Below are positions 32,768 through 62,613 of a DNA stretch of 64,000 bases, piece after piece (position 1 is the stretch's first letter; every line of letters begins with the position of its first letter). This DNA comes from Planctomyces sp. (lineage in GTDB: Bacteria > Planctomycetota > Planctomycetia > Planctomycetales > Planctomycetaceae): assembly GCA_016795105.1 (NCBI GenBank), contig JAEUIH010000019.1:1-64000 (forward strand), written 5' to 3'. A program made the position numbers and the translations under genes. Below the pieces are notes generated by a model. The model saw only the letters and a list, made by a program, of their open reading frames with translations. It was not told the DNA's origin and ran no database searches.

Positions 32768-35700
32768 ATGATTCAGGCGTTTATCAGGAAGGCACGACAA
32801 ATCTTTGAAGCCAACGGATCGGCGAACGGGCCTTGTACCCACCGCAGCAGTTCCGCACTTCGAAGGAAGCGTTCTTCCAGGTATCGGCAACCGGCTTCTG
32901 AGACCCTGGAAGAACGCATCGTGCTGGCCACGTATTCATGGCAGGGAGGATTCGCTTCGAACGTCTGGCAGGACGCTCGAAACTGGATGAACGTTGATCT
33001 CGGAGCCACGAATCAGGGCTTCCCGGATGCGGATGACATTGCCATCATTGCAGGCGGACCGAACCTGACTCTCAACGCCGACCTCACGATTGGCACACTG
33101 AACTGGGAATCCACCGCCCCCAACCTGCAACTTAACACCAACGTCTCAACTCTCACCATTAACGGAGGAACGATCGAGGGAGGCTTGCTGGTGGGCGGAT
33201 TCATCAACAATGGAACGCTCAATATTGATGTGCCCGTTGGAGTCAATTCCGTAGGCGATGGTGCTCCTCGTCTGTGGGGCTCCCTCACGAACAACGGTAC
33301 GTTCCGACTGCAGAATGGTCCGTTTATCACAAGCTGGCCGATTTCGGCGACCGGAGCGATCACCAATAGTACAACAGGGGTCATCGAGCTGATCAATGAC
33401 AGCGCGATCCGATCGGACTGGGGGCAGCCTGTCTTGGTGAATCATGGAGTGATCCGCAAGACGGGCACCGGAGTCAACGCGATTATTTCGTCCCGCATTC
33501 AGTCACAAACCGGAAGTCGAATTGAAGTCGATGGCGGCACTCTTACCCTCGGCGGTACTCAGCACGATCTGAGAGGCGACATCGAAGTCAGTCCATCGGC
33601 TTCACTTCAAACATCCGCTTCGGTGCAGATCCTTGATGATATTCAGCTGACGGGAGGTGGTGAATGGCGGCATAGCGCGGGAATCATGTACCCCAATGGC
33701 CATACTCTTAACTCTGTCGCCACAACACTGCGTCTGGAGGCTGCTTCGGGCGACGGCAGCAGTACGCAGATTGCTGGCAGTGGAGTCTTCAATCTCTCAG
33801 AGTTGAAAGTCGTGCGGGGAAGAATTGGCACACCGGGTTTCTTTACTTCCTACACGTTCAATCCGTTCGTCAACACGGGTGTGGTGAAGTTTGAGCCTGT
33901 GCAAAACAATTCGGCCGTGATGTCAGCGGCTACCATCCACAATCAGGGCAGCATCATCATCGATGCGTCCACTGCTGGCAGCGGTTTCGGATTGCAGGGC
34001 TCTGCCATCGACAACCAAACGGGCGGAACAGTCACGTTCCTGAGCTCAGTCAATGCATATATTCAGGCGGCCTGGATCAACGCTGTTGGTCCGTCGTACC
34101 TGTTCAACAGTGGGACCCTCATTTCAAATACTCCTGGAGCTTCAGCGTTTTGGGACGGGCTGTTGTTGCAGAACTCACCGGAAGGTCGCATTGAAGTGTC
34201 TGCCGGAACGCTCGACTTCTCTGGTCTTCGTCACTGGTCTTCAACGCCCTCAGAGCAGAGCTTCAGCAAAGGCGGACACTTTGTTGTGTCCCCAGGCGCA
34301 ACGCTTGACCTTTCCAATGGCAGTGCTGCCACCGGCTCTCCCCGCTACTCGGGTCGCTATACGGCAGAAGGTGGCGGTACGATCCGACTGGGTGGTAACT
34401 GGTGGGACAATGCCGTCATTGATTTCCCGACGGGGATGGCGATCTGGGATGCGGGCACGAACTACGGACGACTGATCAATGAGGGGGATTTGAGGATTGG
34501 TCCCGATTCGGGATCACGGCACATGTGGGGTGAACTCATCAATGAAGGAACTCTCACCGTTCAGAATGGAACGCAACTTCAGCTGAACCAGCTCTTTCAG
34601 GGTCAGGGCACGCTCATCAATCGCTCCAGCGGCACTGTCACTCTGGAAGACGGAAGCCAGGTTCTTGGTGTGTTCAACGGCAGCGTTCAGTTGAGCCAGT
34701 CGCCGTTGTTCGTGAACCAGGGACTGGTTCGAATGGATGGAGGCGGTGCCTGGATTCAGACTCGCTTCGAGAATCAGGGCGTTGTCTCGGTGGATAACTC
34801 CGCGTTCCTCACCGTGAGTGCACCTCGGGGAGAAACTGCGTTTGGTTCAGGACTGACCACACTGCCTGGTGACTGGCACATCGTTGACGGCAGCCGTATC
34901 GATTTCCCTTCCGCTGGTTCAGTCTTCACGACTCTCGGCGGTGAACTGCACCTGGACGGCGCCAGCAGTCGGTTCACTGGACTGGAAGAACTGACCACTG
35001 TCCGCGGACACCTGTCCCTGACCGGAGGCACCAACTGGACTCGTAACGGTGCTTTTGAGAATCAGGGGGCAATCACGCTGGGCAGTAACAGCACACTGAC
35101 CGTTAATGGAGCATTTACTCAAAGTTCCAACGGTTCGTTGACGACTCTTGTGGGCGGCACAACCAGCATGGGTCGGCTCAACTCCATCAGCACGACCACA
35201 CTTGAAGGAACATTGATCACAGGACTGGAGAACGGCTTCCAGCCACTGGAGACGGATCGCTTTGATGTGGTTACGGCATTGACGATCAACGGTACGTTTG
35301 ATGACATCGAAGTGAACGGTCTGGCTGCGACGGTGACCTCAAACAAGGTTACTCTGGGGCTGTCTTCAATCGCCGCCGACCTTACAATTGAGAACGTTCA
35401 GTTGCTGGGAGTTTCCGGGCCGCTCAATCCTGGCCAGACGTTTCAGGTTCAGTACACCGTTCGAAATCTGACGGACCGCACCGTCAACGGGCCATGGACA
35501 GATCTGTTGTTCCTTTCTGAGAATTCAACACTCGATCTGCATGATCTGTCGGTGAAGCGATCTGTCCCCACGGCATCGCTGCCTGCCTTTGGCAGCACCA
35601 CGATTACGGAAACCATAACGGTGCCGAATCGTCCAGGCCGCTGGTTTGTGATTCCCGCTGCTGATGCCGCCGGAGTCGTGCTGGACCTGAATCGATCCAA

Positions 35701-38700
35701 CAATGCACGGCCTTCAACTTCTGCCATTCAGATTTCTGCAGAAGCTCTGCCGTTCGGCGTCAATGTTTCCAGCAACACCCCCGCGAATGAGCCTGTCTAT
35801 TACGCGTTGACCGTGCCCACGGGCGCGACCACCATTCAGGTGATGACAACATTCCCGGCAGGCGATGCGGGGGAAATTCGAATTCGACGGGCCAGCTTGC
35901 CGACCGGTGGATCGGACGATCCCTATGTCGCGTCGACCATTGTCGAAGGCGGGAATCGCGTTGCTCGAATCACAATGGATGAGCCCGTTGCCGGAACATA
36001 CTACGTCTCGGTGATCAGTCGAGCTCCTGGCAATGCGGTGACTCGAGCAGATAACTTATCGCTGAGCCTCCTCGGAATTGAAAATGAAGCTTCGATCAGT
36101 TCGCAACTGCTTGTTGCTGATTCGCTGTTGCTGACAGTGCGAGGAACCGGTTTCACTTCGGCCACTCAGTTTCGCCTGGGCACTCAACTCGCCAGCAGCG
36201 TCAACCGTGTTGACTCAACCACCGCCGCAATCACATTCACCAATCTGAGCATTGGCGGACCATTCCAGATTTCAGCTGACAATGGCGGAGCGCCGGTGGT
36301 GTACTCCGGAAAGAACTTTACGGTCGTGTCCGGAGGCACATCTGCGGCTGACGCCTGGGCGAGGATGCCGAACTGGCAGGTCGAAGTCAGCATGCCTGAG
36401 ATTACTCGCCCGTTCCGCGACATTCCGGTTCTGGTCACTGTGAAGAACAACAGTACCAGAAGTCAGCCGGCTCCAGTGATTCAGCTCATTACCGACAACG
36501 GCGCGTTTCTGCCAGTGGGAGAAACGGAAGCATCAGAAGACTTTGCCAGCATCCTGGCGGTGAAAGAGAGCGGTCGCGCAGACAACTACGCACCCGGCGA
36601 AACGGTAACGCTCAGGCTCTTCGTTCAGCCGCGGGCCAACGGCCTGCATGTATTCACCAGAGTTGCAGCGGCGGCGATTGCAGAAACCCGAATTCAGTCA
36701 CAGACGGGAGTTGGTGGGGCTATCTTCCCCGTGGAAAGCCAGGAGCCGCTTACAACCGCGATGCTGGATGCATACCGCCCCGACTTCATTTCGCCTGAAG
36801 CATGGACCAATGCGGTCCGGCCAGCATTGTCGGCTCTGGTGGGTAACACAGTCCAAAGCTGGAGCAACGCCATCCGCAGTGCGGCTGCGGTTCTGGCACA
36901 GGATGGTCTCTCCACACTCAACCCGTCTCGAGCCATGGCTTACCTGATTCAGCAGGCGAATCGGTTCGGGACGATACACCAGAGATTCGCGTTGACTGCG
37001 TATGGACGTGGCATTGAAAACCCGTTGGATATCCGTGCGGTGACGGACGTTGATGGAAACGTGGACCTGATTACCGGCTTCTCGATTCGCTCATTCCGCC
37101 GGTCCGGCAGTAGTTTCGTCGGCTATGGTGCTGATCGCGGGCAACTCTCGAATCAGAGTGGCGGTGGATACATCCTGACCGAAGCCGATGGAACAATCAC
37201 GGCTTACTCGTCAGATGGAACATGGGACTACACCGAATCCCGTCTCGGAGTTCGCGTCACGGCAGGTTATACAGCCGGACGCCTGACGACACTGACAGAT
37301 CACTTTGGTGATGTGACAACTTTCGCATATAACGGAAACGGACGAATCACATCCATCACGGATCCCGTGGGTCGAGCCACAACGCTTGCATACGATGCTC
37401 AGCAAAGACTGACATCGATCACCAGTGCGGAAGGTGTGATCACATACGAATGGAACGCTGACACGACCGGACCCAAAGCGTGGACACTTTCCGGTGTCAT
37501 TGGGATCGATGGTGTGCGATCGAACTTCGTGTATGACTCAGCCGGTCGTATCCAGCAAACATCGCTGGCCAACAATCTGCAGGCCGTCAACTACGTTTAT
37601 GGCAGCCTGGCACAGCTCGGCCGAGTCACCGTTACCGACGCGCTTGGGCGTACGACATCGTGGCTGGAAGGCGAATTCGGTCAGCCTACGGAAGTCACAG
37701 AAATGACCGGAGAAGCAGCCGACCTGATGTTCGATAACGAAGGCCGACTCACGGGAGTAAGACAGGGTAGTATTCGAACGTCTCTCGTGCGCGATGCCTT
37801 TGGGAGCATCACTCGACTGACGTCACCAGCGGGCCACGACACAACGATTGATTTTGATTCTGATGGCGTGTTTTCGGAGGGAATCACCAACGCCAATGGA
37901 CATCTGACTGACTTTGTGCGAAACAATCAGAATCTGATGACGAGTTCCGTCAATCCTGATGGCAGTTACAGACTCTATGGGTACGACTCACTGGGCAATC
38001 GACTCTTGCAGAAGACCGAGGGTAACCGCTGGACGCTCGACACGGTCAACAGCAAGAACCTGATCACTCGACGTGAATACTCCGATGGATTGAGACAGGA
38101 CTACACCTACGACGCTCGCCGCAACATGACACAGATTGTGGAAACGCTGAGCAACGGATCAACGCAGACGGTGACCTTCACGTACGATGCAGCCGATCGA
38201 ATCACTCGAATCACTTATCCCAACGGTCGCTTCGTAAACTATCGTTACGATGCTGGCGGCCGACAGGATCAGATCAGCACCTCAGATGGACTCACCATCG
38301 ACTACACCTTCGACACCCTCGGCAATCTGGCCACCGTAAGCCGAAACGGGAGCCTACAGGTGACTTATGCGTATGACGCAGCGGGACAACTGGCATCGAA
38401 GACATTCAGTAACGGCGCATCGACTCACTATTCGTACAACAGCTTCAATCAGCTGACTCGGATCGAACATCGCGACAACACGTCGGCAGTGATCAGCTTC
38501 AATGATTACGCATATGATTCGCACAATCGACTGATCTCGATGACGGACGCAGCCGGACTTACATCCTACGAGTACGATCCTGATGGGCAGCTGGTCGCGG
38601 TTACCTTGCCAAACGGCACGATTCATCGCTACGACACCGATGCGGTAGGAAATCGAGCGGGATACCTGGCGAACTCGATGAATCAGTACCAGACTGGACC

Positions 38701-41700
38701 GAACGGAGAGCAGTTTGAATATGATACAGACGGCAATCTGATTTCCATGGTCAGAGCTGACGGCAGCAGCCTGCAGTATTCTTATGACAGCCGGAATCGG
38801 TTGTCGAGCATTGTTGATGGCAACAACACCTGGCAATTTGAGTACGACCCGCTGGGCAATCGCTGGGCGGTGACGCTGAACGGAACACGAACCGAACTGC
38901 TGATGGACGCACTGGGCGGCGTTGATGGGCTCAACGATGTGCTGGCGGAATACGTGAGCGGAAATCAGACGGCATCGTATGTGATCGGCACCGGCCTCGA
39001 AGCCATGATTTCGAACTCCGGGACTCAGAGCTACTACCACTTCGATGTCACCGGCAACACAACTGCGCTGACGGCTGGCGATGGCAGTGTTTCGGCCAGT
39101 TATCGTTATCTGCCGTTTGGGGAGATTCTGTCAGCCAGCGGAACAGCCGCATCGACGAATCGTTACACGTTCAACGGTCAATGGGGTGTCTCGCAGCGAG
39201 GAACCGCCGGATTCGACATGCGAGCACGGCTCTATGACTCGACCACGGGCCGATTCACGCAGCTTGATCCGATTGGATTTCTGGGCGGCGATGTGAATCT
39301 TTATCGGTATGTGGGCAATTCACCAATCCTGCTGACGGATCCCTCTGGCTTACAACCCTCCGGAATGCCAAACATCAAACTTCCAAGCCGCCCTGGAGGC
39401 GCACGCGTTGTTCAAACCGGCGTAGGAATTCTCCGAGGAGCTCCGAACGGTTCTGGGACAACAGGACTTATACGAACAGGTTTTCAGACAGCATTTCGCT
39501 TTGGGGTGGGGCAGGGTGTCACGATTGCGGAGGGCGGAGCCGGAGCAGCGGGAATCGCCAGCAGTCTGTACCTGTTACCTCTGCTTCCTCTGATTCCCGT
39601 TGCTGCTGACATTGCGGGCAATCAGATTGAAGCCCATGAAGCCGGCAAGGCCGGACCAGCACCAACAGTAACGTCCGACCATGTCCGGAGATTGACGGAC
39701 ATTCGAAGCAAACAACACCCGGCCCTCAAGTCACTTCTGGACCAATGGCGACAGCAGAATCCAGGTCAGGAACCACCATGGGAAACGGTCCTGTACTATT
39801 TGCGGCTCATCAAACAGGGCGAAAAAGATCTTGAAACCTCCGAGCAGCGAACTCCCAACGATCCGAACGAGATTGTGGGACCGACTGGAACCGGCACGGG
39901 GGGCTTCCTGACAACACCGGCGTTGTTCCCTTACACAATCTACTTCCAGAATGTGCCGACCGCAGCAGCGCCGGCTCAGGAAGTGTTCGTCACGCAGCAG
40001 CTGGATGCGGATCTCAACTGGGATTCGTTCGAGCTGAATCAATTCGGATGGGGCGATGTGGTACTGAATGTCCCGGCGGGATTAAAGTCGTGGACGGGAC
40101 GAGTCTCTGATCCGGCCAGTGGGCTGGTGGTCGAAGTCACGGCTCTGTTCAATTCAGTGTCGGGCCAGTTGAGCTGGACCTTCCGATCGCTGGACCCTGT
40201 GACCTTCGACCTTCCGTGGGATGGGCTCGCCGGCTTCCTGCCGCCTGACGATGTAACAGGGCGTGGTCAGGGATTTGTGTCCTATACAATCGCTCCGAAA
40301 TCCAATGCCGTCAGCGGCACCGAATTCACGGGACAGGCTTCTATTGTCTTTGACACAGAGGCCCCCATCGTCACCAATACCTGGCTCAACACCGTCGACC
40401 TGAATCGCCCGTCGAGCAGTGTTGCGGCTCTGCCTTATCCTGTCGTGACGCCCACGTATCTTGTTTCATGGACAGGAAACGATGGAGCAGGTGCCGGAAT
40501 CTCGGCATACGATGTTTACGTGTCGGAAAATGGAGGGCCGTTTACAATCTGGCAGAGCCAGACAACGTTGACGTCTGCCGTATTTGCAGGCCGTCATGGC
40601 AGAACATATCAGTTCTACAGCGTGGCCACCGATCACGTTGGAAACGAGGAGCTTCTGCCAAATCAGCCGGATACGACGACGTGGTTCAACTTACCGTCGG
40701 GTTTTACGGCACCGGGAGCATTCGTAAATAGTTTGACTCCGACATTTGAGTGGACTCCAACTCCGGGGGCAGTGTCATACGAGCTGTGGTTCGCGAATTC
40801 TGCCACAGGGGTGAATCCGTATCGGCAGGCGACATCAACCACGAACTCATATACCCCTTCAACACCTTTCGACATTGGCCGATATGTGGTCTGGCGAAGG
40901 AGCGTGGATTCGAATGGCGTTCGTTCAGATTGGAGCCCGCAATACAATGTTCAGATCGGTGCGCCAGTCGTTCTGGAGCCGATGGATCGTTTCTATGCGG
41001 ACGCAACTCCCACAATCCAGTGGGCTGCCTTGCAGGGTGCCGTGAGCTACGAATTGTGGGTTGACAATGTTACCACCGGTCAGAAAAAGTTTGTCTATGA
41101 ACCCAGCTGGAATCAGACATCATGGACTGCAGCAACAGACTGGCCTCTTGGCACATATCGCATCTGGGTTCGCGGACGCGATGCCGGCAATGTGCCCACG
41201 CCATGGTTAAATGTGACAGAGATCCTTATCGTTGCACCACCATTGGTCGTTGGCCAGGCATCTGCCACCTTTGATAGACGTCCAACACTTACCTGGGCCG
41301 CAGTCGTCGGTGCTCAAACTTACGAACTGAGGCTTGTCAACGAAGTCAATGGTGTTATCACGACTCAGACAAATCTGGCTTCGACAAGCTGGACCCCATC
41401 TGCAAACCTGAATGACGGTCCCTATCGCTGGCAGGTTCTCGCTCAAAGTGCTTCAGGAATGCGCAGTCTGTGGTCAAATCCACAGTCATTGTTTATCGGT
41501 GGACGTCCAACAGTGACATTGTCCTTAGCGGGCTCAAATCACCAGCCTATCATTGTGTGGTCGCCTGTGGCGGGAGCAGTGAGGTATGAGCTTTGGGTTG
41601 ATCGAGTTGGTGTTCAGGCGGGATATCTGCAGAATACGCAACTGACCGGAACAACTTTTACGCCTTCAAATCCACTCCCCGCCGGAACATACCGCATCTG

Positions 41701-42034
41701 GTTGAGAGCTGTGAGTTCCTCCGGAGAATTCAGCCCATGGAGCATACCCCGCGAGATAATTGTCTCTGAACTGGATTCGCTAAAGCCTCGTTTGCTACCC
41801 GCCGAGCCGATACCTGATCCCCTGGAGTCGAAAAACAGACCGAGTTCTGAGGAACGACCAGAGTTGGATGCGGTCAGGCCCCGAATTCCGTCGTCGTTCA
41901 CCCAAATCTCCAACCTGAATCCAGTAACCATCGACTGCATCATGGCACTGATCTCCAATGAAGGACTGCCACACGAAAAAAGTGGTGAAGAATTTGAGTT
42001 TGTCGTTCCGGAGTTTGTTATCTGTAGTCGCTGA
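32768..42034 (+). CDS. Giant LEPR-XLL / RHS-YD repeat / fibronectin-like surface protein
   Basis: 3088 residues. The N-terminus is basic and carries LEERIVLA (47-54), the LEPR-XLL-type motif of large planctomycete surface proteins. Residues ~55-860 are beta-helix-like repeats of the form N-x-G-(T/V/L)-(L/I)...GGTLTL. A CARDB-like domain (about 870-985) and further beta domains to ~1400 follow. About 1490-2195 are YD repeats ending in a complete RHS core (RYLPFGEIL..., RARLYDSTTGRFTQLDPIGF, NLYRYVGNSPILLTDPSGL). After the core there is a hydrophobic Ala/Gly-rich stretch. Instead of a toxin tip it continues for ~800 residues with a PAQEVFVTQQLDADLNWDSF domain and at least five fibronectin-like repeats (AVSYELW...GTYRIW). 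No immunity-like gene follows. It diverges from the kinase/sigma pair. Confidence 0.93.
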   Translation: MIQAFIRKARQIFEANGSANGPCTHRSSSALRRKRSSRYRQPASETLEERIVLATYSWQGGFASNVWQDARNWMNVDLGATNQGFPDADDIAIIAGGPNLTLNADLTIGTLNWESTAPNLQLNTNVSTLTINGGTIEGGLLVGGFINNGTLNIDVPVGVNSVGDGAPRLWGSLTNNGTFRLQNGPFITSWPISATGAITNSTTGVIELINDSAIRSDWGQPVLVNHGVIRKTGTGVNAIISSRIQSQTGSRIEVDGGTLTLGGTQHDLRGDIEVSPSASLQTSASVQILDDIQLTGGGEWRHSAGIMYPNGHTLNSVATTLRLEAASGDGSSTQIAGSGVFNLSELKVVRGRIGTPGFFTSYTFNPFVNTGVVKFEPVQNNSAVMSAATIHNQGSIIIDASTAGSGFGLQGSAIDNQTGGTVTFLSSVNAYIQAAWINAVGPSYLFNSGTLISNTPGASAFWDGLLLQNSPEGRIEVSAGTLDFSGLRHWSSTPSEQSFSKGGHFVVSPGATLDLSNGSAATGSPRYSGRYTAEGGGTIRLGGNWWDNAVIDFPTGMAIWDAGTNYGRLINEGDLRIGPDSGSRHMWGELINEGTLTVQNGTQLQLNQLFQGQGTLINRSSGTVTLEDGSQVLGVFNGSVQLSQSPLFVNQGLVRMDGGGAWIQTRFENQGVVSVDNSAFLTVSAPRGETAFGSGLTTLPGDWHIVDGSRIDFPSAGSVFTTLGGELHLDGASSRFTGLEELTTVRGHLSLTGGTNWTRNGAFENQGAITLGSNSTLTVNGAFTQSSNGSLTTLVGGTTSMGRLNSISTTTLEGTLITGLENGFQPLETDRFDVVTALTINGTFDDIEVNGLAATVTSNKVTLGLSSIAADLTIENVQLLGVSGPLNPGQTFQVQYTVRNLTDRTVNGPWTDLLFLSENSTLDLHDLSVKRSVPTASLPAFGSTTITETITVPNRPGRWFVIPAADAAGVVLDLNRSNNARPSTSAIQISAEALPFGVNVSSNTPANEPVYYALTVPTGATTIQVMTTFPAGDAGEIRIRRASLPTGGSDDPYVASTIVEGGNRVARITMDEPVAGTYYVSVISRAPGNAVTRADNLSLSLLGIENEASISSQLLVADSLLLTVRGTGFTSATQFRLGTQLASSVNRVDSTTAAITFTNLSIGGPFQISADNGGAPVVYSGKNFTVVSGGTSAADAWARMPNWQVEVSMPEITRPFRDIPVLVTVKNNSTRSQPAPVIQLITDNGAFLPVGETEASEDFASILAVKESGRADNYAPGETVTLRLFVQPRANGLHVFTRVAAAAIAETRIQSQTGVGGAIFPVESQEPLTTAMLDAYRPDFISPEAWTNAVRPALSALVGNTVQSWSNAIRSAAAVLAQDGLSTLNPSRAMAYLIQQANRFGTIHQRFALTAYGRGIENPLDIRAVTDVDGNVDLITGFSIRSFRRSGSSFVGYGADRGQLSNQSGGGYILTEADGTITAYSSDGTWDYTESRLGVRVTAGYTAGRLTTLTDHFGDVTTFAYNGNGRITSITDPVGRATTLAYDAQQRLTSITSAEGVITYEWNADTTGPKAWTLSGVIGIDGVRSNFVYDSAGRIQQTSLANNLQAVNYVYGSLAQLGRVTVTDALGRTTSWLEGEFGQPTEVTEMTGEAADLMFDNEGRLTGVRQGSIRTSLVRDAFGSITRLTSPAGHDTTIDFDSDGVFSEGITNANGHLTDFVRNNQNLMTSSVNPDGSYRLYGYDSLGNRLLQKTEGNRWTLDTVNSKNLITRREYSDGLRQDYTYDARRNMTQIVETLSNGSTQTVTFTYDAADRITRITYPNGRFVNYRYDAGGRQDQISTSDGLTIDYTFDTLGNLATVSRNGSLQVTYAYDAAGQLASKTFSNGASTHYSYNSFNQLTRIEHRDNTSAVISFNDYAYDSHNRLISMTDAAGLTSYEYDPDGQLVAVTLPNGTIHRYDTDAVGNRAGYLANSMNQYQTGPNGEQFEYDTDGNLISMVRADGSSLQYSYDSRNRLSSIVDGNNTWQFEYDPLGNRWAVTLNGTRTELLMDALGGVDGLNDVLAEYVSGNQTASYVIGTGLEAMISNSGTQSYYHFDVTGNTTALTAGDGSVSASYRYLPFGEILSASGTAASTNRYTFNGQWGVSQRGTAGFDMRARLYDSTTGRFTQLDPIGFLGGDVNLYRYVGNSPILLTDPSGLQPSGMPNIKLPSRPGGARVVQTGVGILRGAPNGSGTTGLIRTGFQTAFRFGVGQGVTIAEGGAGAAGIASSLYLLPLLPLIPVAADIAGNQIEAHEAGKAGPAPTVTSDHVRRLTDIRSKQHPALKSLLDQWRQQNPGQEPPWETVLYYLRLIKQGEKDLETSEQRTPNDPNEIVGPTGTGTGGFLTTPALFPYTIYFQNVPTAAAPAQEVFVTQQLDADLNWDSFELNQFGWGDVVLNVPAGLKSWTGRVSDPASGLVVEVTALFNSVSGQLSWTFRSLDPVTFDLPWDGLAGFLPPDDVTGRGQGFVSYTIAPKSNAVSGTEFTGQASIVFDTEAPIVTNTWLNTVDLNRPSSSVAALPYPVVTPTYLVSWTGNDGAGAGISAYDVYVSENGGPFTIWQSQTTLTSAVFAGRHGRTYQFYSVATDHVGNEELLPNQPDTTTWFNLPSGFTAPGAFVNSLTPTFEWTPTPGAVSYELWFANSATGVNPYRQATSTTNSYTPSTPFDIGRYVVWRRSVDSNGVRSDWSPQYNVQIGAPVVLEPMDRFYADATPTIQWAALQGAVSYELWVDNVTTGQKKFVYEPSWNQTSWTAATDWPLGTYRIWVRGRDAGNVPTPWLNVTEILIVAPPLVVGQASATFDRRPTLTWAAVVGAQTYELRLVNEVNGVITTQTNLASTSWTPSANLNDGPYRWQVLAQSASGMRSLWSNPQSLFIGGRPTVTLSLAGSNHQPIIVWSPVAGAVRYELWVDRVGVQAGYLQNTQLTGTTFTPSNPLPAGTYRIWLRAVSSSGEFSPWSIPREIIVSELDSLKPRLLPAEPIPDPLESKNRPSSEERPELDAVRPRIPSSFTQISNLNPVTIDCIMALISNEGLPHEKSGEEFEFVVPEFVICSR

Positions 42035-42928: not shown

Positions 42929-43472
42929 GTGAACACGTTCCTTCGTTGGGGATGGTCAACGTTTCAGAGCAACGGACAACATTCGACATTGAATGCAGCC
43001 TGTTCTGAGCTTTCAGCGAGCGTCCCGAATCATCGTTTTGCTCGTTGAGTTGTTGAGGAGGAATAAAGCGAACGTCGTGCCAGAACCCAAAGAATCGCTA
43101 CATCTCAAAAAACGGCCGGATTCGCAAAATTCGCACATGGCCTGAATTCAGAGTGTCGTCACGCTGATACCAGTCAAAGTCAGTATTTGGACACATTCGC
43201 CATGCGGACGCCACGGGTATGACCCCGAAATTACCGGAGGCCTGACCCTGGCTCACAGGACTTGACCCCGACGTTACGCTTTGGAGTTCCCCCAAACCGC
43301 CAAACACGGCTGGTCCGGCAAAAATCGCCGAACTTGCGGATGGTGGTCTTTCCCTAGATTCTCCCTTTTATTAACGTTCGCTCCGCGATGGTAAATTACC
43401 GGAACTGTGGAAACCTCGTTTCGGGATGTTGGTCAGGAGTGTTTGGAGGTTGTCGGAAGGGACTCTGAGTCA
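42929..43472. other. Intergenic region between divergent genes
   Basis: About 540 bases holding the promoters of the Cys-repeat gene (leftward) and the SbcD-like gene (rightward). The rightward frame is open from a GTG at 43407, but the family-like start is the ATG at 43473. No repeat, RNA or additional gene is seen. Confidence 0.45.
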
Positions 43473-45218
43473 ATGGCGTTCGAACCGCAACGATTTATCC
43501 ACGCTGCCAATGTGAGACTGGATGTGCCGGTCAGTGTTCAGACGTCGGATGTGCTGACGGATGACTTGAGGGTAGCGTTTGAAGACGCGACGCTTCACAG
43601 TTTTGAGTGTGTCATTCAGAACTGTATTGCTCGAAGTGTGGACTACCTTCTGCTTTCGGGGAACATCTTCGTCGAAGCTGACCGCAGTCTTAGGGCTCGG
43701 CTGTCACTTCTGAACGGCCTGAGAATACTGGATTCAAAGCGAATTCGCGTGTTTGTGCTTCCCGGGGATACGGATCCGCCTGAGGCATGGCGACAGATTC
43801 CGGAGATGCCTGGGAATGTCACGATTTGTTATAGCTCGAATCCTGAGCCGGCGGAGTTCCTGCGTGGCGACAAAGTGATTGCCACAATTTCTTCATCGAT
43901 GTGGTATGGCGAGAAAGATGCGTTTGGGATTCAGGTGATTGCTCAGAGTGTTTCCGGGATTCAGCCGTTTCGAATCGGACTGGTCAGTGAATCGAAGTTT
44001 GAAGAAGCCGAGCGAATGGCGGCGATGGCTGCTGAGTCTTCGGATGAGTTGATCGCATCGGCTCTGGATGAGGACGGTCCTGAAGAGGTTGACCTCGCAG
44101 CCCGAGGACGATCAGGCAAACTGGTTCCGATTTCCGGAAAGCCAAAGACAGCACCTGTGACAGAAGATCTGGCGGATCTTCTCGATGAAGAGCAGCAGAT
44201 ACTTCCTGGTGTTCCGGAAGTTGAAGCAACCGTTGAGGAGTCGGCCAACGGAGAGTCTCTTGCCGAAGAATGGAACTCGGACTTTGTCACATATCTGGAC
44301 CAAATCTTTCGCGAAGGGCACTTGAACTATCTGGCACTGACGGGTGAACTGGCACGTGCGACTTTGCGGCGTCCTGCGGGAGTAATGCACTGCCCCGGAA
44401 CGACTCAGCCTCGAAATCGTCGGGAAGCTGCGGTTGGAACGTGTTCTCTGGTGCAGGTTTCAGCGGAAGGGCGAGTCGAGATCTCCACGATTGACACAAG
44501 TGCGGTGGACTGGAAGGACATTGAAATTCATGTCGCGGCGCAGACAACGCTTTCCTCCATGCTGCAGTTCATGAAAACTCGGCTTTCTGATCAGGTTGTG
44601 AACCCTTCGGATCGCATCTGGTCAGTCCAGTGGACGATCCGTTGCTCATTGCCGGTAATGAGAGAGCTTGTGGCGGATGACCTTGACGTTGCTGTTTCGA
44701 TAGAGCTGGACGAGCTGAAAGTGGGTTCGCAGCTGATTCGGCTTCTGCACAACATTCGGCTTGTTCCCAACGGATGGCGAATTGAAGATGAAAAGTCGCT
44801 TGCTCAGCGGTACTCCATGATGGCTGAAGGAGCGATTGATGGTGATGAAGTCAGTCTTCAGCGCTGGGTGGATTCACAGAAATCGCTGTCTCCCGGGTGG
44901 AAGCAGCGTTTGTCAGCGCTGATGGACGGTCTTGACCGGGAACGCATTGTCTCTCGTTTGCGGTCTGATGGAGCTTCATGGTTTATTCAGGATCTTTCGG
45001 TGTTGCTTCCGGATGCATCGGAGATGTCACTGGATGAACTTGACGAGGAAGACCCCGACAACATTATTGATGAACTCGAAACCGATGAGCTGGACTCTGA
45101 AGAGCTGGTTGAGTCCGAAGAAGCCACCGAAGAGTACGATGAAGACTACTCTGACACGGACGAGGAAGACTCCGAAGATTCCGCTGACGATGAGTTCGGC
45201 GATCGAGAGGGAGACTGA
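43473..45218 (+). CDS. SbcD/YhaO-like protein with all metallophosphoesterase motifs degraded
   Basis: 581 residues from the ATG at 43473 (GGAAGGG upstream); a GTG at 43407 is possible. The N-terminus follows the exonuclease pattern, but every metal ligand is changed: HAADxHLD reads HAANVRLD (Asp to Asn, His to Arg), GDLFD reads GNIFV (63-67), GNHD reads PGDTD (97-101) and the late GHxH block reads ALTGELA. A spacer rich in Ala/Glu/Asp lies between. The C-terminal ~70 residues are an extreme Asp/Glu tail. It sits two bases upstream of the YhaN-like ATPase, the same partner order as sbcD-sbcC and yhaO-yhaN. Most likely it is a catalytically dead scaffold or regulator subunit of that complex. 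Confidence 0.78.
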   Translation: MAFEPQRFIHAANVRLDVPVSVQTSDVLTDDLRVAFEDATLHSFECVIQNCIARSVDYLLLSGNIFVEADRSLRARLSLLNGLRILDSKRIRVFVLPGDTDPPEAWRQIPEMPGNVTICYSSNPEPAEFLRGDKVIATISSSMWYGEKDAFGIQVIAQSVSGIQPFRIGLVSESKFEEAERMAAMAAESSDELIASALDEDGPEEVDLAARGRSGKLVPISGKPKTAPVTEDLADLLDEEQQILPGVPEVEATVEESANGESLAEEWNSDFVTYLDQIFREGHLNYLALTGELARATLRRPAGVMHCPGTTQPRNRREAAVGTCSLVQVSAEGRVEISTIDTSAVDWKDIEIHVAAQTTLSSMLQFMKTRLSDQVVNPSDRIWSVQWTIRCSLPVMRELVADDLDVAVSIELDELKVGSQLIRLLHNIRLVPNGWRIEDEKSLAQRYSMMAEGAIDGDEVSLQRWVDSQKSLSPGWKQRLSALMDGLDRERIVSRLRSDGASWFIQDLSVLLPDASEMSLDELDEEDPDNIIDELETDELDSEELVESEEATEEYDEDYSDTDEEDSEDSADDEFGDREGD

Positions 45219-45220
45219 GC

Positions 45221-48200
45221 ATGAAGCTTACAGAAATTGACATTGATCGTTTTCGAATCTGGCGAAACCTCCTGCTGCGACTGAATCCGGCGGGATTGAA
45301 TGTCATTTACGGTCCGAACGAAGCCGGCAAGACGACGCTGATGCGATTTGTTCGATCGGTGTTGTATGGATTTGACCCTCTTGCGGAAGAACCTGCGTGG
45401 CAGCGACCTGACGAAGAGCAGCCATGGCGGGGCGCGATCCGATGTGAACATGCCGGGCGGACGTGGCGCATTCATCGACAGGCGGAGCTGAGTGGCAGAG
45501 GACGGTTGAGGTTATCCGGGGGACCAGAAGGAGTTGAACTCGATGAAGCGCTCGATCAACTCCTTTGTGGGACAAGTGAGAATCTCTACACAGACATCTT
45601 TGCCGTTGGCGTTCGCGAGCTCCAGCAGCTGGCGACGCTGGGTACCGATCAGGTATCTGAATACATTTATGGTCTGTCGATGGGGCCACAGGGCAGGCAG
45701 ATTCTGGATGCACTGTCCGATGTTCGCGACCGCCGTCTGAGGATGCTCAGTGAATCCGGCGATGCAGGACAGCTGCATGATCTGTTCGAAAAGTATTCAC
45801 GGCTCTCCGGGAATCGAAGAAATCCCGGGCGGACTCGTGATCAGCATGCGAGACTCACGCGGCGGCGCCGAGAACTGAACGATGAGATACACGAGCTGCA
45901 GGAACGCGAGAGTCAAATTACAGGTGAGCTGCGGGGACTGAGATTCATCCAGTCATGTTATAAGCCCTGGAAACGGACTCGGGATCTTCATGAAGAAATC
46001 AATCGTCTTCCGCTGGTTCACACAAATCCTTCAGAAGCACTCAAGCAGCTGACGGCGTGTGATCGAGATATCCAGGAAGCCACTTCACGGCGTGAAAAGC
46101 TGAATGAGCAGGCCACTCAGTTTCGAGCCCAGGCCGATCGACTTCAGGTTGACAACGCGTTTGACAAGGAACGCTATGCGATCCAGAGTCTTGTGGATCA
46201 GGCTGACTGGCTTCGACAGATTGATGAGCAGATTCGTCAGGCAGAAGATCGGTCTGCCGAATTGCGACGAGAGCTGAATCATCAGATGGCACAGATGGGC
46301 AGTGGCTGGAGTACGGACCGGCTGAACGCCGTGGATACATCGCCATCAGCCCACCATCGACTGCTTGAGTCGGCTCGCAGGTATCAGTCCGCCATTCAGC
46401 GCCGGGGAAAGCTGCGACGCTGGAATCGAGGACTGTCTCATCGCAGTCAGCAGGAGCTCGTCGAGCTGAATACGGAACTGGATACGCTGGGAACATCAAT
46501 CGAAGATGCGATTGCTCGGGAACAGCATCGCATGCAGGAACTGGAAAATCTTGGGCGGCTGCGACTGCAGGAGGAGCGGCTGGCTCTCAAGATCCAGACA
46601 GTTCGTCGCGTGATGAGCCGTGTCGATACCGACGACTCGATTCCGCCCTGGGTCGACAAAGCCGTGAACACGATGTGGTGGATTGGCACGGCCCTGTTTC
46701 TGTTTGGGATTATGACATTTGCCCTCGGAGCTGATGCTCGACGTTCACTGGGCGGCGCACTTGCGGCTGCAGCATTTGGTTTTGCGGGAATGATGTGGTG
46801 GGGTGTTCGCAATGGACTGCGAAATCATTTTGACCGCAAGACCGGCATCCAGCTTGACGATCTCGTTGAAGAAGCTCGCCAGGCAGACCGTGAGCTGCGA
46901 AACATTCAGGAACGTATTCAGAGGATGGCCGATGTGGGGCGGTCACTTGGTCGATCAGTTCAGGTCAACGGAGATGATCGATCTTCGACTGCTGAACTTG
47001 TTGAGCGGATTGGTGAGTGTTCGAGACGCATCACAGATCTCGAACGTCTGGCCCGCCGCCAGGAACGCGCAATGGCTCGGCGGTCGCGACTAAAGACGCT
47101 GCGTGAACGATTTCGATCTGCTCAGGCGTCCGTTACTCAGGAACGCCAGGAATGGTGCCGACTTCTGACGCAGCTGGGGATGGATGAAACCGTCAATGCC
47201 GAGCAGGCGTTTGACTGGTGGCAGAAGATTCAGCAGCTGCGTGAAATGCACACCCAATGGCGAAATTCAGCTCCTGAAGTCGAGGGACTGCGGCGCATGT
47301 TTGAGGGGATGCGAGCACGTGTCGAACAGCTGGGTACAAGGCTGGCATCTGCTAAGAAGATGAACTTTACTCGGCCATTAGAAGTTCTGACGGCCTGGCA
47401 GCAGCAGTTGAAGAGTCATGATCGAGATCGACTTGAGAAAGAGCGACTCACTCAGGAAGCCGATACCCGTGCGCGGGACGCGATTCATGCTCAGCATCAA
47501 CTGGAGGCAGCGGAACTCCGCCGCAGCGCCGTACTGGCCCGCGCCGGTGTTTCGTCGCGTGAAGAATTGGTGGCACAGCAGGAAGCAGAGAACAAACGCA
47601 AACAACTTGAGAATCAGCTGAATAAGGCCAATGATGAATTGAACGATCTGGCTTCGGCTGAAAAAGAGCTGGCGATTGTCGAGGACGATCTGATTCGGTT
47701 CGATCCGGCACAGGCTCGTGAAACGATTCAGCTGCTCGATCTTGAACTGACCGAAGTCGTTGAGAAGCTTAACAATAATCATGAAGAACTTGGCAGCCTG
47801 AAGCAGGAGATTAAGCTGCTTGAAGCCAGCCGCGATTCTCATGCTGACTACTTTCAGAAAGCACAACTGGCCTCGGAAATCTATCGAGCCGCCGAAGAAT
47901 GGGTCGCTCTGGAAATCGAACAGGACGCCGTTGTAAAAATCCGCCGCCAGTTTGAGCAGGAGAACATTTCCGGGACTCTGGTAACGGCATCGTTGTACAT
48001 GCATCGAATGACCTCGGGCCGTTACCATCGCATCTGGGCACCACTGGGTGAAGACTTCCTCTGTATCGATGACGAGTATGGACAGACGTTTCGAGTTGAA
48101 CAGTTGAGTGGAGGGACTCGAGAACAACTTTTCCTCTCAATACGTTTCGCACTGGTCCGCGAGTTCGCTCGCCGTGGTGTCGAACTGCCGATCGTAATGG

Positions 48201-48550
48201 ATGACCTGTTCGTGAACTTCGACCAGGAACGAACGGAAGCAGCAGCCGACTGTCTGATCGAACTGGCTGCTTCCGGCCAGCAGGTTCTGTTCTTCACCTG
48301 CCATGAACATCTGGCAAAACTGTTCCAGACAAAGCACATTGAACCGCTTTGGTTGCCCGGTCATAAAGTGGCCGTCGATGTTCATAAGCCGGAGCTGGAG
48401 GAGTTTACTTCACATGCCAGAGTTGATGGGGGATTTGATGGTGTGCCAGGAGGCCCCAATCGCTCCGGAAACTTCTCGGTGAATTCCGACGACCTACTCG
48501 ATGACCAGGCCGGCGCACCACTTGCTGATGAACAAAGTTCCCCGGCCTGA
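45221..48550 (+). CDS. YhaN-like SMC/Rad50-type ATPase with central membrane hairpin
   Basis: 1109 residues. Walker A is GPNEAGKT (31-38), after KLTEIDIDRFRIWRNLLLRL. Two long coiled-coil arms follow; in the middle (about 480-530) two hydrophobic helices form a hairpin (WWIGTALFLFGIMTFALG and GGALAAAAFGFAGMMWWG). The C-terminal half-site has the LSGGTREQ signature (962-969), Walker B LPIVMDD (989-995) and a terminal FFTCHEHLAKLF H-loop. All ATPase motifs are intact. This is the YhaN branch of the SbcC/Rad50 family, which has a membrane-touching hairpin instead of a zinc hook. It should act in DNA end processing or recombination with the preceding subunit, but that subunit appears to lack nuclease residues. 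Confidence 0.92.
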   Translation: MKLTEIDIDRFRIWRNLLLRLNPAGLNVIYGPNEAGKTTLMRFVRSVLYGFDPLAEEPAWQRPDEEQPWRGAIRCEHAGRTWRIHRQAELSGRGRLRLSGGPEGVELDEALDQLLCGTSENLYTDIFAVGVRELQQLATLGTDQVSEYIYGLSMGPQGRQILDALSDVRDRRLRMLSESGDAGQLHDLFEKYSRLSGNRRNPGRTRDQHARLTRRRRELNDEIHELQERESQITGELRGLRFIQSCYKPWKRTRDLHEEINRLPLVHTNPSEALKQLTACDRDIQEATSRREKLNEQATQFRAQADRLQVDNAFDKERYAIQSLVDQADWLRQIDEQIRQAEDRSAELRRELNHQMAQMGSGWSTDRLNAVDTSPSAHHRLLESARRYQSAIQRRGKLRRWNRGLSHRSQQELVELNTELDTLGTSIEDAIAREQHRMQELENLGRLRLQEERLALKIQTVRRVMSRVDTDDSIPPWVDKAVNTMWWIGTALFLFGIMTFALGADARRSLGGALAAAAFGFAGMMWWGVRNGLRNHFDRKTGIQLDDLVEEARQADRELRNIQERIQRMADVGRSLGRSVQVNGDDRSSTAELVERIGECSRRITDLERLARRQERAMARRSRLKTLRERFRSAQASVTQERQEWCRLLTQLGMDETVNAEQAFDWWQKIQQLREMHTQWRNSAPEVEGLRRMFEGMRARVEQLGTRLASAKKMNFTRPLEVLTAWQQQLKSHDRDRLEKERLTQEADTRARDAIHAQHQLEAAELRRSAVLARAGVSSREELVAQQEAENKRKQLENQLNKANDELNDLASAEKELAIVEDDLIRFDPAQARETIQLLDLELTEVVEKLNNNHEELGSLKQEIKLLEASRDSHADYFQKAQLASEIYRAAEEWVALEIEQDAVVKIRRQFEQENISGTLVTASLYMHRMTSGRYHRIWAPLGEDFLCIDDEYGQTFRVEQLSGGTREQLFLSIRFALVREFARRGVELPIVMDDLFVNFDQERTEAAADCLIELAASGQQVLFFTCHEHLAKLFQTKHIEPLWLPGHKVAVDVHKPELEEFTSHARVDGGFDGVPGGPNRSGNFSVNSDDLLDDQAGAPLADEQSSPA

Positions 48551-53463: not shown

Positions 53464-54137
53464 CAGACGAGATCCCGCTTTCTTGTCTGAGCGATGAAGG
53501 CAGTGACCAAAGCGCCTGCCGCAATCAGCAGTTCTACCGTGAGCAGTTGAATCAGGACAGGGGGCCAGGAAACGCTGTCGCTCTTTGCGGCTGCTGAAAT
53601 CTCCGGTGAGGCAAACAGCTGCATAAAGAAAACGTTCAGTCCTACATTGCAACCGACCATGACCGAGATGGTCCAGCCAACGGATTCGGAGACGACTGCT
53701 GTTACGAGCTGAATCAGGAATGCACAGAGCAGGAACAGAAAGATGGCCGGGAGCACTGCGAAGGAGCCGTGTTTTGACGTAGGCAGGACAAATGTCAGGA
53801 TCGCGCTGGAGGCAAACATTGCCGACCATGGAATCAGATACGTGGTCAGAATTACGGCGATCTTGCCTACCGAGTAATCAAGAAGGCTTATCGGCATACT
53901 CATCACGAACAACCGCGTCTGATCTGTTGACTCGGACAGCATCAGAGTGCCGATCAGGTGGATGCCTGATGCAATTGCCACCGTGATCATCAACAGAAAT
54001 CCGACAAAAGACACCGTCGGATTCGGGATTGTAGTCAGTGCAGAACTTGCCAGACCGGCAGCAAAGTAGGCGAACAACTGCCGGCGACTCAGGAACAGAT
54101 CCTTCAGAAACAGGATTTTAACCGCTTGAAGATTCAT
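53463..54137 (-). CDS. ABC transporter permease
   Basis: 224 residues, six predicted transmembrane helices and no other domain. It starts MNLQAVKILFLKDLFLSRRQ, typical of ABC-2-type permeases that pair with a single ATPase. The ATG overlaps the ATPase stop (ATGA) and the stop overlaps the acyltransferase ATG, so all four genes are translationally coupled. The substrate is unknown. Confidence 0.85.
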   Translation of the reverse strand: MNLQAVKILFLKDLFLSRRQLFAYFAAGLASSALTTIPNPTVSFVGFLLMITVAIASGIHLIGTLMLSESTDQTRLFVMSMPISLLDYSVGKIAVILTTYLIPWSAMFASSAILTFVLPTSKHGSFAVLPAIFLFLLCAFLIQLVTAVVSESVGWTISVMVGCNVGLNVFFMQLFASPEISAAAKSDSVSWPPVLIQLLTVELLIAAGALVTAFIAQTRKRDLV

Positions 54138-55057
54138 AATGACTTCTCCTCCCGACCACGCATGACCGTGCTGACAAAAATTTCTTCCAGCGTCATTGGA
54201 GCAATCGATTCAATGGTGGCGCCAGACTCCTGAATTCGCTCCATCGTGCTGTCCTGAAACTGATTCATAGACAGAACTCGCAGGCTGCGAAACGATGATT
54301 CCAGCCTCAGCCCATCCAGATTCGGAACGGACCAGTCATCGGAGACCTGAAGACGAATTCGTTTCCACCTGTCGAGATACTCGTCGCGATTTCCCGCAGA
54401 GATGACGTGACCTCGATCGATAAACGTGATCGAGTCACTGATCTGCTCGACGTCCTGGGTATTGTGCGATGAATAAAGTATCGTCCGATTTTCATCCTCC
54501 ACGACCTTCATCAGTTCACCAAGCACCTCATGCCTTGCGACTGGGTCGAGCCCGTTCGTTGGCTCGTCGAGTATTAACAGTTTAGGGCGTCGAGCCAGAA
54601 TCAACAGCAGCATGGCTTTGACTCGCTGACCGTGTGACAGTCCCTTCACTGCCTGATGTTCGATCAATCCAAATCTGCGGAGAAGGTCAGCTGCATACTG
54701 ATCGTCCCATGTGGGATAAAGGGAGCGTACAAACTGCATATGCCATCCGACAGATTCTGGTTTATAGAGTCGCATATCGTCAGAAAAGTAGCCGATGTCC
54801 TGCTTTGCCGCGGCATCGCTTGACGAGATTGTCGTTCCAAGGACCGACACGGTACCGGAATCCGGATTCACCAGTCCCATGAGGATTCTCATGATCGTTG
54901 ATTTACCCGCACCGTTTGGGCCGATCAGCCCCATCACAGAGCCTTTAACTAGTTCCAGATGAATTTTTTTCAGCTGAAAGTGTGCATAAGACTTAGTGAT
55001 ATTCTGAAGGCGTGCGGCGAGTCCTGCGTCCGTGGACGCTTCAAGCAGAGTGGTCAT
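54134..55057 (-). CDS. ABC transporter ATP-binding protein
   Basis: 307 residues. Walker A is GPNGAGKST (about 47-55). The signature is LSHGQRVKA (Gly-Gly of LSGGQ is His-Gly, a common variant in this subfamily). Walker B is LLILDEPTNGLDPVARH, with the H-loop in TILYSSHN. The C-terminal ~90 residues have no separate domain. The YtrB/EcsA-like group goes with YtrA-type GntR regulators. The start overlaps the gntR-like stop (55054-55057). Confidence 0.92.
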   Translation of the reverse strand: MTTLLEASTDAGLAARLQNITKSYAHFQLKKIHLELVKGSVMGLIGPNGAGKSTIMRILMGLVNPDSGTVSVLGTTISSSDAAAKQDIGYFSDDMRLYKPESVGWHMQFVRSLYPTWDDQYAADLLRRFGLIEHQAVKGLSHGQRVKAMLLLILARRPKLLILDEPTNGLDPVARHEVLGELMKVVEDENRTILYSSHNTQDVEQISDSITFIDRGHVISAGNRDEYLDRWKRIRLQVSDDWSVPNLDGLRLESSFRSLRVLSMNQFQDSTMERIQESGATIESIAPMTLEEIFVSTVMRGREEKSL

Positions 55058-60267: not shown

Positions 60268-62613
60268 TTACTCGGATCGGCGTTTCAAGTCAAAGCAGGC
60301 CAGAAGTGCAGGAAGCAGAATCAGGTCTCCCGGCAGTGCCGCTGCCATAGTAATCGAAGTCAGTTCGGCAAATCGACGAGTTGGCACAAAATCGGAGAAG
60401 CCAAGCAGACTCAGGCCACCCACAATCAAAACACTTGTCATGACAATTGCCCGTCCGCAACGAATTACACTTCGGTGAACCGCAACATTTCGCGTGAAAC
60501 CATTCTTTCGTTCAGACAAATACAACGAGAGGAAATGAATGGTGTCATCGACGGCGATACCAAGGCTGATGGAGAAGACAATCACATTGCCGGCAGTCAG
60601 TTCGAAGCCGCGCAACTTCATCCAGGTGACTGTGGTGATCAGAGGCATCAGATTGGGCAATGCGGAGATCATGCCCAGCCTCAGTGAGCGGAATGCTACT
60701 CCAATCAGCAGGAAAATGATTCCGGATGCGGCAACCAGAGAGACAAAAAGATCCCTCACGAACACATCCATGCACAGCGTATGCAGATACGCATCTCCGG
60801 TTGGGACGGCACGGATATCGGATGGCAATTCTCTATTGACGATCGAAGTCACGTGATCAATCAGCTCCTGAAGTTCGGCCGAACCCAGATCGTGAACTCG
60901 CATCATGATTCTGGCCCGGGGCTGATCTGCGGCAATGAAGTCGCGAGTCAGTCGAGACATATCAAGTCGTTCGATCATGCGGCCAATTCGAGCACCTGCG
61001 TCGCCTGCTTCCTGTGAGTTGGTCGATGCGACTCGACCGTCTATGGCTTCCAGAATCTGTACATAGTCTCTGAGAAACGTAATTCGCTGATCGTTTTTCA
61101 GAGCCGTTCTGATTCGCTGCACAGCCAGTACCGCGTCCTGACGGAAGAAGTCCTGCTTCGAGGGTGCCTCAAGATTGATCTCCAGAGACACCAGTCCGGA
61201 GAGTTGACGGTCGAGAAGCTGGATGGTCTGCATTGCCGGATGATGTTCGTCATAGGTTTCAAACATAAACGCATTGACTCGCATGTCCCGTGACCACCAG
61301 AGGCAGGCAATACAGAGCAGGGCATGCAACCAGACAATCGATGTACGATGGCGAACCAGTGCCAACCCGTAGTGGCTCCAGAACCGATAACCGGAAATCC
61401 TGTTCGTGCGAGGAAGATCAGACTCTGCTGAAGACTGCTTTCTGGTCAGTCGACCACCGGTGAGTGTCAATCCACTTCCAAGCACAATGATCAACGAGAA
61501 GTAGTTTGAGATCATTGCAATCACGGCCTGAGTGGCCAGTGTTTGTAGCAGTTCTGATTTCGCGAGCCACAGGCTTCCGAATCCCACCGCAGTTGTAGCG
61601 AGTGTCAAAAGGCAGGTAACCGTCATTTCTGCCATGACGCCCCGAACTGCGAATGCGATACGTACATCCGAAGTCCTTAGCACAACCTGAAGCCTGCTGA
61701 CAATGTGGACAGAATTTGCCGCTGCAATGATCAGAGACAGAGGTGGAATCACATTACTCAGCAGGTTAAATGTTTGGCCTGTCCATCCCATCAGGCCAAC
61801 GGTAACTAATACAGAAGACCCCACAGCACACAATGACACCACGGTGACGAGTGCACTGCGAAACATCAGCAGAGCCAGCAATACAAACGCTGTCGTGCAG
61901 AGCGGCACCATCAACTTCTGGTCATTCTGCAGACTTCGAATGATGTCGACTCGTATCTGTGGTACACCGGTCAATCGTGCTCGAGTTCCTTCAGGGGGCG
62001 GGACGTCTTTCAGCAGCTGCTCGATGGCCTCGACTCGCGGTCGAACGGTTTCCATCTGTCTGCCGGACGGATCAAGTGAGACCAGTACCAGCAGCAACCG
62101 CTTATCGGCACTAATCAGCAGATCGTTCAGCAGCGGCAATCTCTGCAGTCGATCTTCCAGCCGTGATTCGCTCACTAGATCTCTGGCTGAAATGACAGGC
62201 ACCCATTCGATCGATTCATTGGTTGGGCCTGAGCTGCTGGTGTCCTTCAGTTGGGGGCGTTCGAGAGTGACGAGAGATGTGACGCCCGTTACGCCGGAGA
62301 TATCCTTCGCGCCGTTTCCAAATTCAGAGATCCACCTGAGACAGTCCGGTCGCAAAAGCTCTCGACGGTCCGTGGACTCCAGCACGACAAGGCACTGGCT
62401 GTCTTCGAAACGAAACAGACGTTTGTGTGTTTCGCAGAATTCAACCGCCTCATCCTGCCCCGAATAGACGGATTCCGGAGAGAAATCGAATCGAAGTTTG
62501 TAAAGTCCACTGCCAGCAGCGATTGTGAACAGCAGCCATCCCAGCAGGCAGAGACGAGGCGACTCCGTGAGCCAGTTCAGCAACTTGTTTTGCAGCACAA
62601 TCAATGACTTCAT
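60268..62613 (-). CDS. MMPL/RND-family transporter
   Basis: 781 residues with the RND duplication: each half has one helix, a large outer loop and a bundle of five helices. Signatures seen are LLALLMFRSALVTVVSLCAVG and NVIPPLSLIIAAANSVHIVSRLQ in the first half, and FLLIGVAFRSLRLGMISALPNLMPL, NVIVFSISLGIAVDDTIHF in the second. The G-I-A-V-D-D-T-I-H-F core is the conserved proton-relay region of MMPL/Patched-like proteins. The substrate is unknown; relatives move lipids or hopanoids. It starts nine bases after the DUF4332 gene. Confidence 0.92.
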   Translation of the reverse strand: MKSLIVLQNKLLNWLTESPRLCLLGWLLFTIAAGSGLYKLRFDFSPESVYSGQDEAVEFCETHKRLFRFEDSQCLVVLESTDRRELLRPDCLRWISEFGNGAKDISGVTGVTSLVTLERPQLKDTSSSGPTNESIEWVPVISARDLVSESRLEDRLQRLPLLNDLLISADKRLLLVLVSLDPSGRQMETVRPRVEAIEQLLKDVPPPEGTRARLTGVPQIRVDIIRSLQNDQKLMVPLCTTAFVLLALLMFRSALVTVVSLCAVGSSVLVTVGLMGWTGQTFNLLSNVIPPLSLIIAAANSVHIVSRLQVVLRTSDVRIAFAVRGVMAEMTVTCLLTLATTAVGFGSLWLAKSELLQTLATQAVIAMISNYFSLIIVLGSGLTLTGGRLTRKQSSAESDLPRTNRISGYRFWSHYGLALVRHRTSIVWLHALLCIACLWWSRDMRVNAFMFETYDEHHPAMQTIQLLDRQLSGLVSLEINLEAPSKQDFFRQDAVLAVQRIRTALKNDQRITFLRDYVQILEAIDGRVASTNSQEAGDAGARIGRMIERLDMSRLTRDFIAADQPRARIMMRVHDLGSAELQELIDHVTSIVNRELPSDIRAVPTGDAYLHTLCMDVFVRDLFVSLVAASGIIFLLIGVAFRSLRLGMISALPNLMPLITTVTWMKLRGFELTAGNVIVFSISLGIAVDDTIHFLSLYLSERKNGFTRNVAVHRSVIRCGRAIVMTSVLIVGGLSLLGFSDFVPTRRFAELTSITMAAALPGDLILLPALLACFDLKRRSE

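Follow-up and report, generated by a model that had tools for sequence, protein, structure and literature searches.

Introduction

At DNA breaks, Mre11–Rad50 complexes combine cutting, tethering and signalling, and splitting these roles has needed engineered mutants. SbcCD and Mre11–Rad50 have their folds and gene pairing in common with the locus described here, a gene pair from Planctomyces sp. that lies in a 64,000-nucleotide stretch of DNA (the window, by which we mean the whole stretch analysed). Unlike them, however, the window pair lacks the metal ligands and has a predicted membrane hairpin instead of a CXXC zinc hook. YhaON-type pairs (found in Paenibacillus, Bacillus, Cohnella, Chloroflexi, archaea and others) consist of an AAA_27 ATPase and a metallophosphoesterase, and they have the same gene order, ATPase type and predicted hairpin as the window pair, but their nuclease subunit keeps 8/8 catalytic residues and the window's keeps 0/8. 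Canonical planctomycete YhaON (group B) is a homologous pair in the same bacterial family, with an intact site, no hairpin and a separate clade of its own.

An inactive version of this fold has been described elsewhere: the B-subunits of eukaryotic replicative polymerases have an Mre11-like phosphoesterase fold without activity (PMC4996933), as the window's subunit probably does. Their partner, however, is a polymerase and not an ABC ATPase, and their origin is independent. A search of the open-access literature returned no relevant account of an Mre11 pseudonuclease, YhaO/YhaN, a planctomycete SbcD or a Rad50 transmembrane variant.

Gene pair and catalytic positions

The pair consists of two forward-strand ORFs that are 2 bp apart. 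The first (43473–45218, 581 aa) encodes a degenerate YhaO/Mre11-type subunit, recognised by its AlphaFold2 model, VIA, a profile match and its catalytic columns, and the second (45221–48550, 1109 aa) encodes a Rad50/YhaN-type ATPase with coiled coils, recognised by Pfam (AAA_27, 7.8e-12), its AlphaFold2 model and VIA. The first ORF runs from an ATG at 43473 to a stop at 45218, and an alternative GTG start at 43407 is also open in frame. As in YhaON pairs, the ATPase gene is directly 3' of the nuclease-like gene, and relatives show the same order. Upstream of the pair, an ORF of 3088 aa (32768–42034, forward strand) contains a long run of RHS/YD-type repeats.

The canonical catalytic pattern, D,H / D / N,H / H / H,H, is invariant in 15/15 planctomycete YhaO paralogues, whereas in the window protein these positions are N,R / N / D,T / no His / G,L. 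Motif I is HAANVRLD in place of HAADxHLD (residues 10–17, 43500–43523), motif II is GNIFV in place of GDLYD (residues 63–67, 43659–43673), motif III is PGDTD in place of xGNHD (residues 97–101, 43761–43775) and motif V is ALTGELA in place of ALGHxHx (residues 288–294, 44334–44354), all on the forward strand. An insertion makes the motif IV column locally uncertain, but there is no His nearby in the window protein. P. furiosus Mre11 (1ii7) aligns with the canonical profile at D8, H10, the GDLF Asp, GNHD, the LH of motif IV and GHIH, so the scored columns correspond to the residues that bind metal and to the catalytic His. In that protein, we take metal 1 to be held by D8, H10, D49 and H208, and metal 2 by D49, N84, H173 and H206.

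Degeneracy is general in group A, to which the window's subunit belongs: all 31 of the group-A subunits examined in the family (the window's and 30 others) are degenerate, and the eight positions vary freely. The earlier note on this DNA had quoted the strings HAANVRLD, GNIFV, PGDTD and ALTGELA and claimed that the subunit had lost every metal ligand. All four strings are present, the claim holds, and the clade-wide degradation that it proposed to look for among planctomycete homologues is there. One new residue is nearly fixed, i.e., W387, present in 42/42 group-A proteins and 19/20 partial ones, where intact proteins have L, V or I.

Fold of the first subunit

An AlphaFold2 model of the first ORF, built on 32 sequences, had a mean pLDDT of 79 and a pTM of 0.73. 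Its top Foldseek matches were Mre11/SbcD chains, and VIA gave a Z of 20.9 to 3av0_A (4.3 Å over 290 residues), with matches spanning residues 3–434, i.e., an Mre11-type fold with phosphoesterase core and capping domain. A profile of the protein's relatives also matched Mre11 and SbcD chains in the PDB (E 1e-9 to 1e-7), although a single-sequence phmmer search of the PDB with the protein itself gave no meaningful match. Taken together, sequence and model indicate that the fold, capping domain and C-terminal helices of an Mre11-like subunit are retained and selected while the two-metal site is gone, which is to say that the protein is a true pseudo-nuclease. The first subunit lacks the residues that define the catalytic site, and the name "nuclease" is therefore not appropriate for it.

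Two parts of the model are disordered. One is an insert at residues about 205–262 (44085–44258, forward strand; pLDDT under 50, also evident in the alignment), and the other is an acidic tail with 35 D/E in the last 60 residues (45036–45215, forward strand), delineated by the alignment and the AlphaFold2 model. Both are mainly traits of the window's subclade, with a similar acidic tail in genome G009, so the regulatory acidic tail that the earlier note offered is not supported for the group as a whole.

The subunit is nearly invisible to annotation: Pfam assigns the window protein to no family, and of 32 relatives only 4 match Metallophos (Pfam), weakly; NCBIfam gives the window protein only a weak Mre11 hint (E 0.0065). 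The nuclease-like protein used alone as a query of genome contigs found no relatives, and an alignment of the ATPase found them.

ATPase and predicted membrane hairpin

The ATPase has a split ABC head with coiled coils and all of the expected motifs, most positions of which are invariant in an alignment of 21 orthologues. These are Walker A (GPNEAGKTT, residues 31–39, 45311–45337), the ABC signature (LSGGTREQ, residues 962–969, 48104–48127) and Walker B with the D-loop (LPIVMDDLFVNFD, residues 989–1001, 48185–48223), all on the forward strand; Walker B reads LPIVMDD and the D-loop NFD, and the switch His is present. The earlier suggestion of a pseudo-nuclease paired with an intact Rad50/YhaN-type ATPase is thus borne out.

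In the AlphaFold2 model, the head lobes are residues 1–200 and 918–1040, with coiled coils in between. VIA gave Z 24.6 to the Rad50 chain 3qf7_A, a loose superposition (13.8 Å over 316 residues), and Z 23.7 to the Rad50 chain 3qku_A (3.3 Å over 270 residues). SMC heads score close behind, so our preference for Rad50 over SMC comes from the partner and the sequence profile, not from Z alone. A Lamassu defence system would have a LmuB-like ATPase next to a gene for an LmuA effector nuclease; the ATPase here matches LmuB at 2e-16 with its best stretch in the coiled coil, and the adjacent gene matches no PADLOC family. PADLOC matches to LmuB, GajA and others were short or in the coiled coil.

There is no CXXC in the window ATPase. 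Instead, its coiled-coil tip has a predicted transmembrane hairpin at residues about 476–539 (46646–46837, forward strand), which we identified with a Kyte-Doolittle scan, the alignment and two helices in the AlphaFold2 model (476–505 and from 510); the call combines hydropathy with a monomer model of pTM 0.40 and low confidence near the tip. A strongly hydrophobic mid-chain segment, often two, occurs at the coiled-coil tip in 38/38 group A and A' ATPases, and there is no such segment at that place in the canonical planctomycete paralogues of group B or in group-C ATPases. The hairpin was absent from the earlier note, and it appears, from hydropathy and modelling, to replace the zinc hook and tie the ATPase to the membrane.

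Relatives from Paenibacillus, Chloroflexi and archaea have similar predicted hairpins. Hairpin and 8/8 catalytic residues occur together in most of the non-planctomycete YhaON pairs that we found (Paenibacillus, Bacillus, Cohnella, Chloroflexi, Methanosarcinales, Methanoculleus, Latescibacterota, Aminicenantes and others), making the hairpin a general YhaN-type trait and the catalytic loss a derived one. Scalindua, an early planctomycete branch, also has both.

Distribution, trees and selection

Of the 37 family genomes, 35 have a strong match to the group-A ATPase, and in 33 we could identify the degenerate subunit as the gene immediately 5' of it; one of the other cases is at a contig end. 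Trees were quick searches with SH-aLRT support only and midpoint rooting. The ATPase tree has 135 rows, and one of its branches, with an SH-aLRT of 97, splits the planctomycete degenerate pairs from the intact ones. All 42 intact rows fall on the other side of this branch, together with two exceptions from outside the planctomycetes, L196 and the fragmentary L216. In the nuclease-subunit tree, built with the ligand columns masked, the intact/lost character needs two changes, which fits one loss in the planctomycete lineage and one in a Verrucomicrobia MAG (L196).

Loss within the lineage is graded. Twenty pairs, most of them named as Pirellulales, have a pattern close to DHD-x-x-(H/Y)-G-H; judged by the P. 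furiosus assignment that we assume, these have kept metal 1 and lost the metal-2 ligands and the catalytic His. In Planctomycetaceae (the window's family, to judge from named neighbours such as Fuerstiella), nearly all catalytic positions are lost, and there is further erosion in L098 and in some Pirellulales-side members (L096, L097, L100 and L159). Outside the lineage, nearly all relatives keep 8/8. The loss is old and apparently stepwise, and both trees are compatible with a single ancestral loss in Planctomycetia that erosion then followed.

In the Verrucomicrobia MAG, the YhaO next to a hairpin-type YhaN has DHGLGSSM as its catalytic residues, and a second phylum appears to have lost the nuclease site independently. 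One family genome contains an intact-site pair with a hairpin ATPase (L120, at G034:C78) and a degenerate pair elsewhere. A plasmid search gave only partial, distant YhaN-family matches.

Where dN/dS was not saturated, it ranged from 0.06 to 0.3 for the pseudo-nuclease. For example, between L146 and L155 (dS 0.59) it was 0.12 for the pseudo-nuclease and 0.10 for the ATPase partner, and between L096 and L097 it was 0.06 for the pseudo-nuclease. The comparison of the window with G001 is saturated for the nuclease-like gene; identity between the two is 59% for the pseudo-nuclease and 79% for the ATPase, i.e., the subunit is the faster-evolving of the two in the window's subclade. Low dN/dS, a sign of purifying selection, and the conservation of W387 both indicate that the pseudo-nuclease gene is not decaying.

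The window also contains part of a second YhaON-like pair (L061). Its ATPase occupies 62623–64000 on the reverse strand and continues to G000:C110 67312, and the part in the window is the C-terminal part with a DUF4332 helix-hairpin-helix domain. The nuclease-like subunit of L061 is also degenerate, its ATPase lacks the membrane hairpin, and it sits in its own clade (C) with G001, G032 and others. Between the window's two degenerate pairs are an ABC transporter ATPase (54137–55057, reverse strand) and an MMPL-family exporter (60271–62613, reverse strand), neither of which is conserved beside the pair in relatives.

Interpretation

A siteless subunit and an intact motor have been inherited together across a whole bacterial lineage, and for this reason the pair probably holds or senses DNA rather than cutting it, the DNA role being one that we infer. 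It probably descends from, and works like, a YhaON/Mre11–Rad50 complex. Our preferred reading, to which we give a probability of roughly 0.6, is that this pair represents, in the window, an old branch of YhaON complexes specific to planctomycetes: a membrane-anchored, ATP-driven, Mre11–Rad50-like clamp that tethers or senses DNA without cutting it.

In such a complex, the heads of two ATPases would be bridged by a pseudo-Mre11 dimer, and cycles of ATP binding and hydrolysis would open and close them around DNA. The hairpin would meanwhile anchor the coiled-coil tip in the cytoplasmic membrane. DNA ends, forks or foreign DNA might then be sensed or tethered by the complex at the membrane before separate enzymes take them over. 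The pseudo-Mre11 would serve as dimer scaffold and DNA gate, much as the catalytically inactive B-subunits of the same fold have a non-catalytic role in eukaryotic DNA polymerases (PMC4996933). Work on related complexes is relevant here: E. coli SbcCD H84Q, a nuclease-deficient single active-site mutant, has its ATPase activity down by only about 15% (PMC6265447), and human MRN has a DNA-bound sensing state in which the nuclease is auto-inhibited, suited to tethering or signalling (PMC12446458).

A more specific version can be offered only tentatively. In ancestral Planctomycetia, a membrane-anchored, Mre11–Rad50-like nuclease may have given up metal 2 first and metal 1 later, ending as a tether that is driven by ATP, has no catalytic role and keeps chromosomal or replicating DNA attached to the cytoplasmic membrane, i.e., a structural, family-wide pseudo-complex.

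The alternative that survives best, though we judge it unlikely, is that the pair is a docking platform that binds DNA and recruits a separate nuclease or helicase to do the cutting. It is compatible with our preferred reading, of which it would be a special case, and the window genome does have an intact SbcCD elsewhere (at C336; no canonical YhaO was found in that genome). However, neighbour clustering over more than 40 loci linked no third gene, nuclease or otherwise, to the pair: after the initial clusters, mostly antisense shadow ORFs, had been cleaned, no family occurred in more than eight loci and none at a fixed position. About 15 of the 37 family genomes lack any sign of an intact YhaO or SbcD, although copies could be concealed in fragmented assemblies, and the pair does not therefore require either enzyme as a partner; nor is the acidic tail general. 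The earlier proposal that the complex recruits another nuclease is thus unsupported as a general feature.

Quite improbable, too, is a phosphoesterase site rebuilt from other residues; the subunit would then still be an enzyme, and it might use a single metal or act on a new substrate. H306 (88%) and H426 (83%) are new, widely conserved histidines in the degenerate clade that are rare in intact proteins, and they leave a small opening for a relocated metal site. W387 (100%) is likewise conserved in that clade and rare in intact proteins, and the three residues may mark a new interface or ligand site. The metal-1 ligands kept by Pirellulales relatives likewise make a one-metal intermediate plausible. 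Yet the window's clade has no conserved acidic or His replacement at any lost ligand's own position, and H306 and H426 fall short of full conservation.

The pair could also be a regulatory paralogue that joins an active YhaON or SbcCD of its own cell in mixed complexes and restrains it, and such partners are available in some genomes: canonical YhaO is present in 18 of 37 family genomes, and SbcD passes the cut-off in 4 others. We consider this very unlikely, since the pair persists in three single-contig assemblies in which neither was detected (G004, G007 and G016) and has a dedicated ATPase, while canonical planctomycete YhaN lacks the hairpin. There is similarly little room for a role away from DNA, i.e., a membrane-tethered SMC-like ATPase with some other mechanical job; the predicted membrane hairpin would suit it, but both subunits match Mre11 and Rad50 best, in sequence profile and in fold. 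Finally, every catalytic residue is lost and the gene changes faster than its partner in the window's subclade, but a decaying pseudogene kept only by its operon position can hardly be squared with the selection data, the open frames in relatives, the invariant new W387 and a confidently predicted fold.

Implications

Under the preferred reading of a membrane-anchored clamp that tethers or senses DNA, cutting appears to have been removed naturally from a whole lineage and the rest of the complex kept under selection. With a predicted hairpin where Rad50 has its zinc hook, one may also ask why YhaON-type complexes would be at the membrane. Apparent intermediates can be seen, from intact sites (Firmicutes, Chloroflexi and archaea) through metal-1-only sites (Pirellulales) to none (Planctomycetaceae), and this natural loss series therefore makes the nuclease-independent functions of such complexes directly testable.
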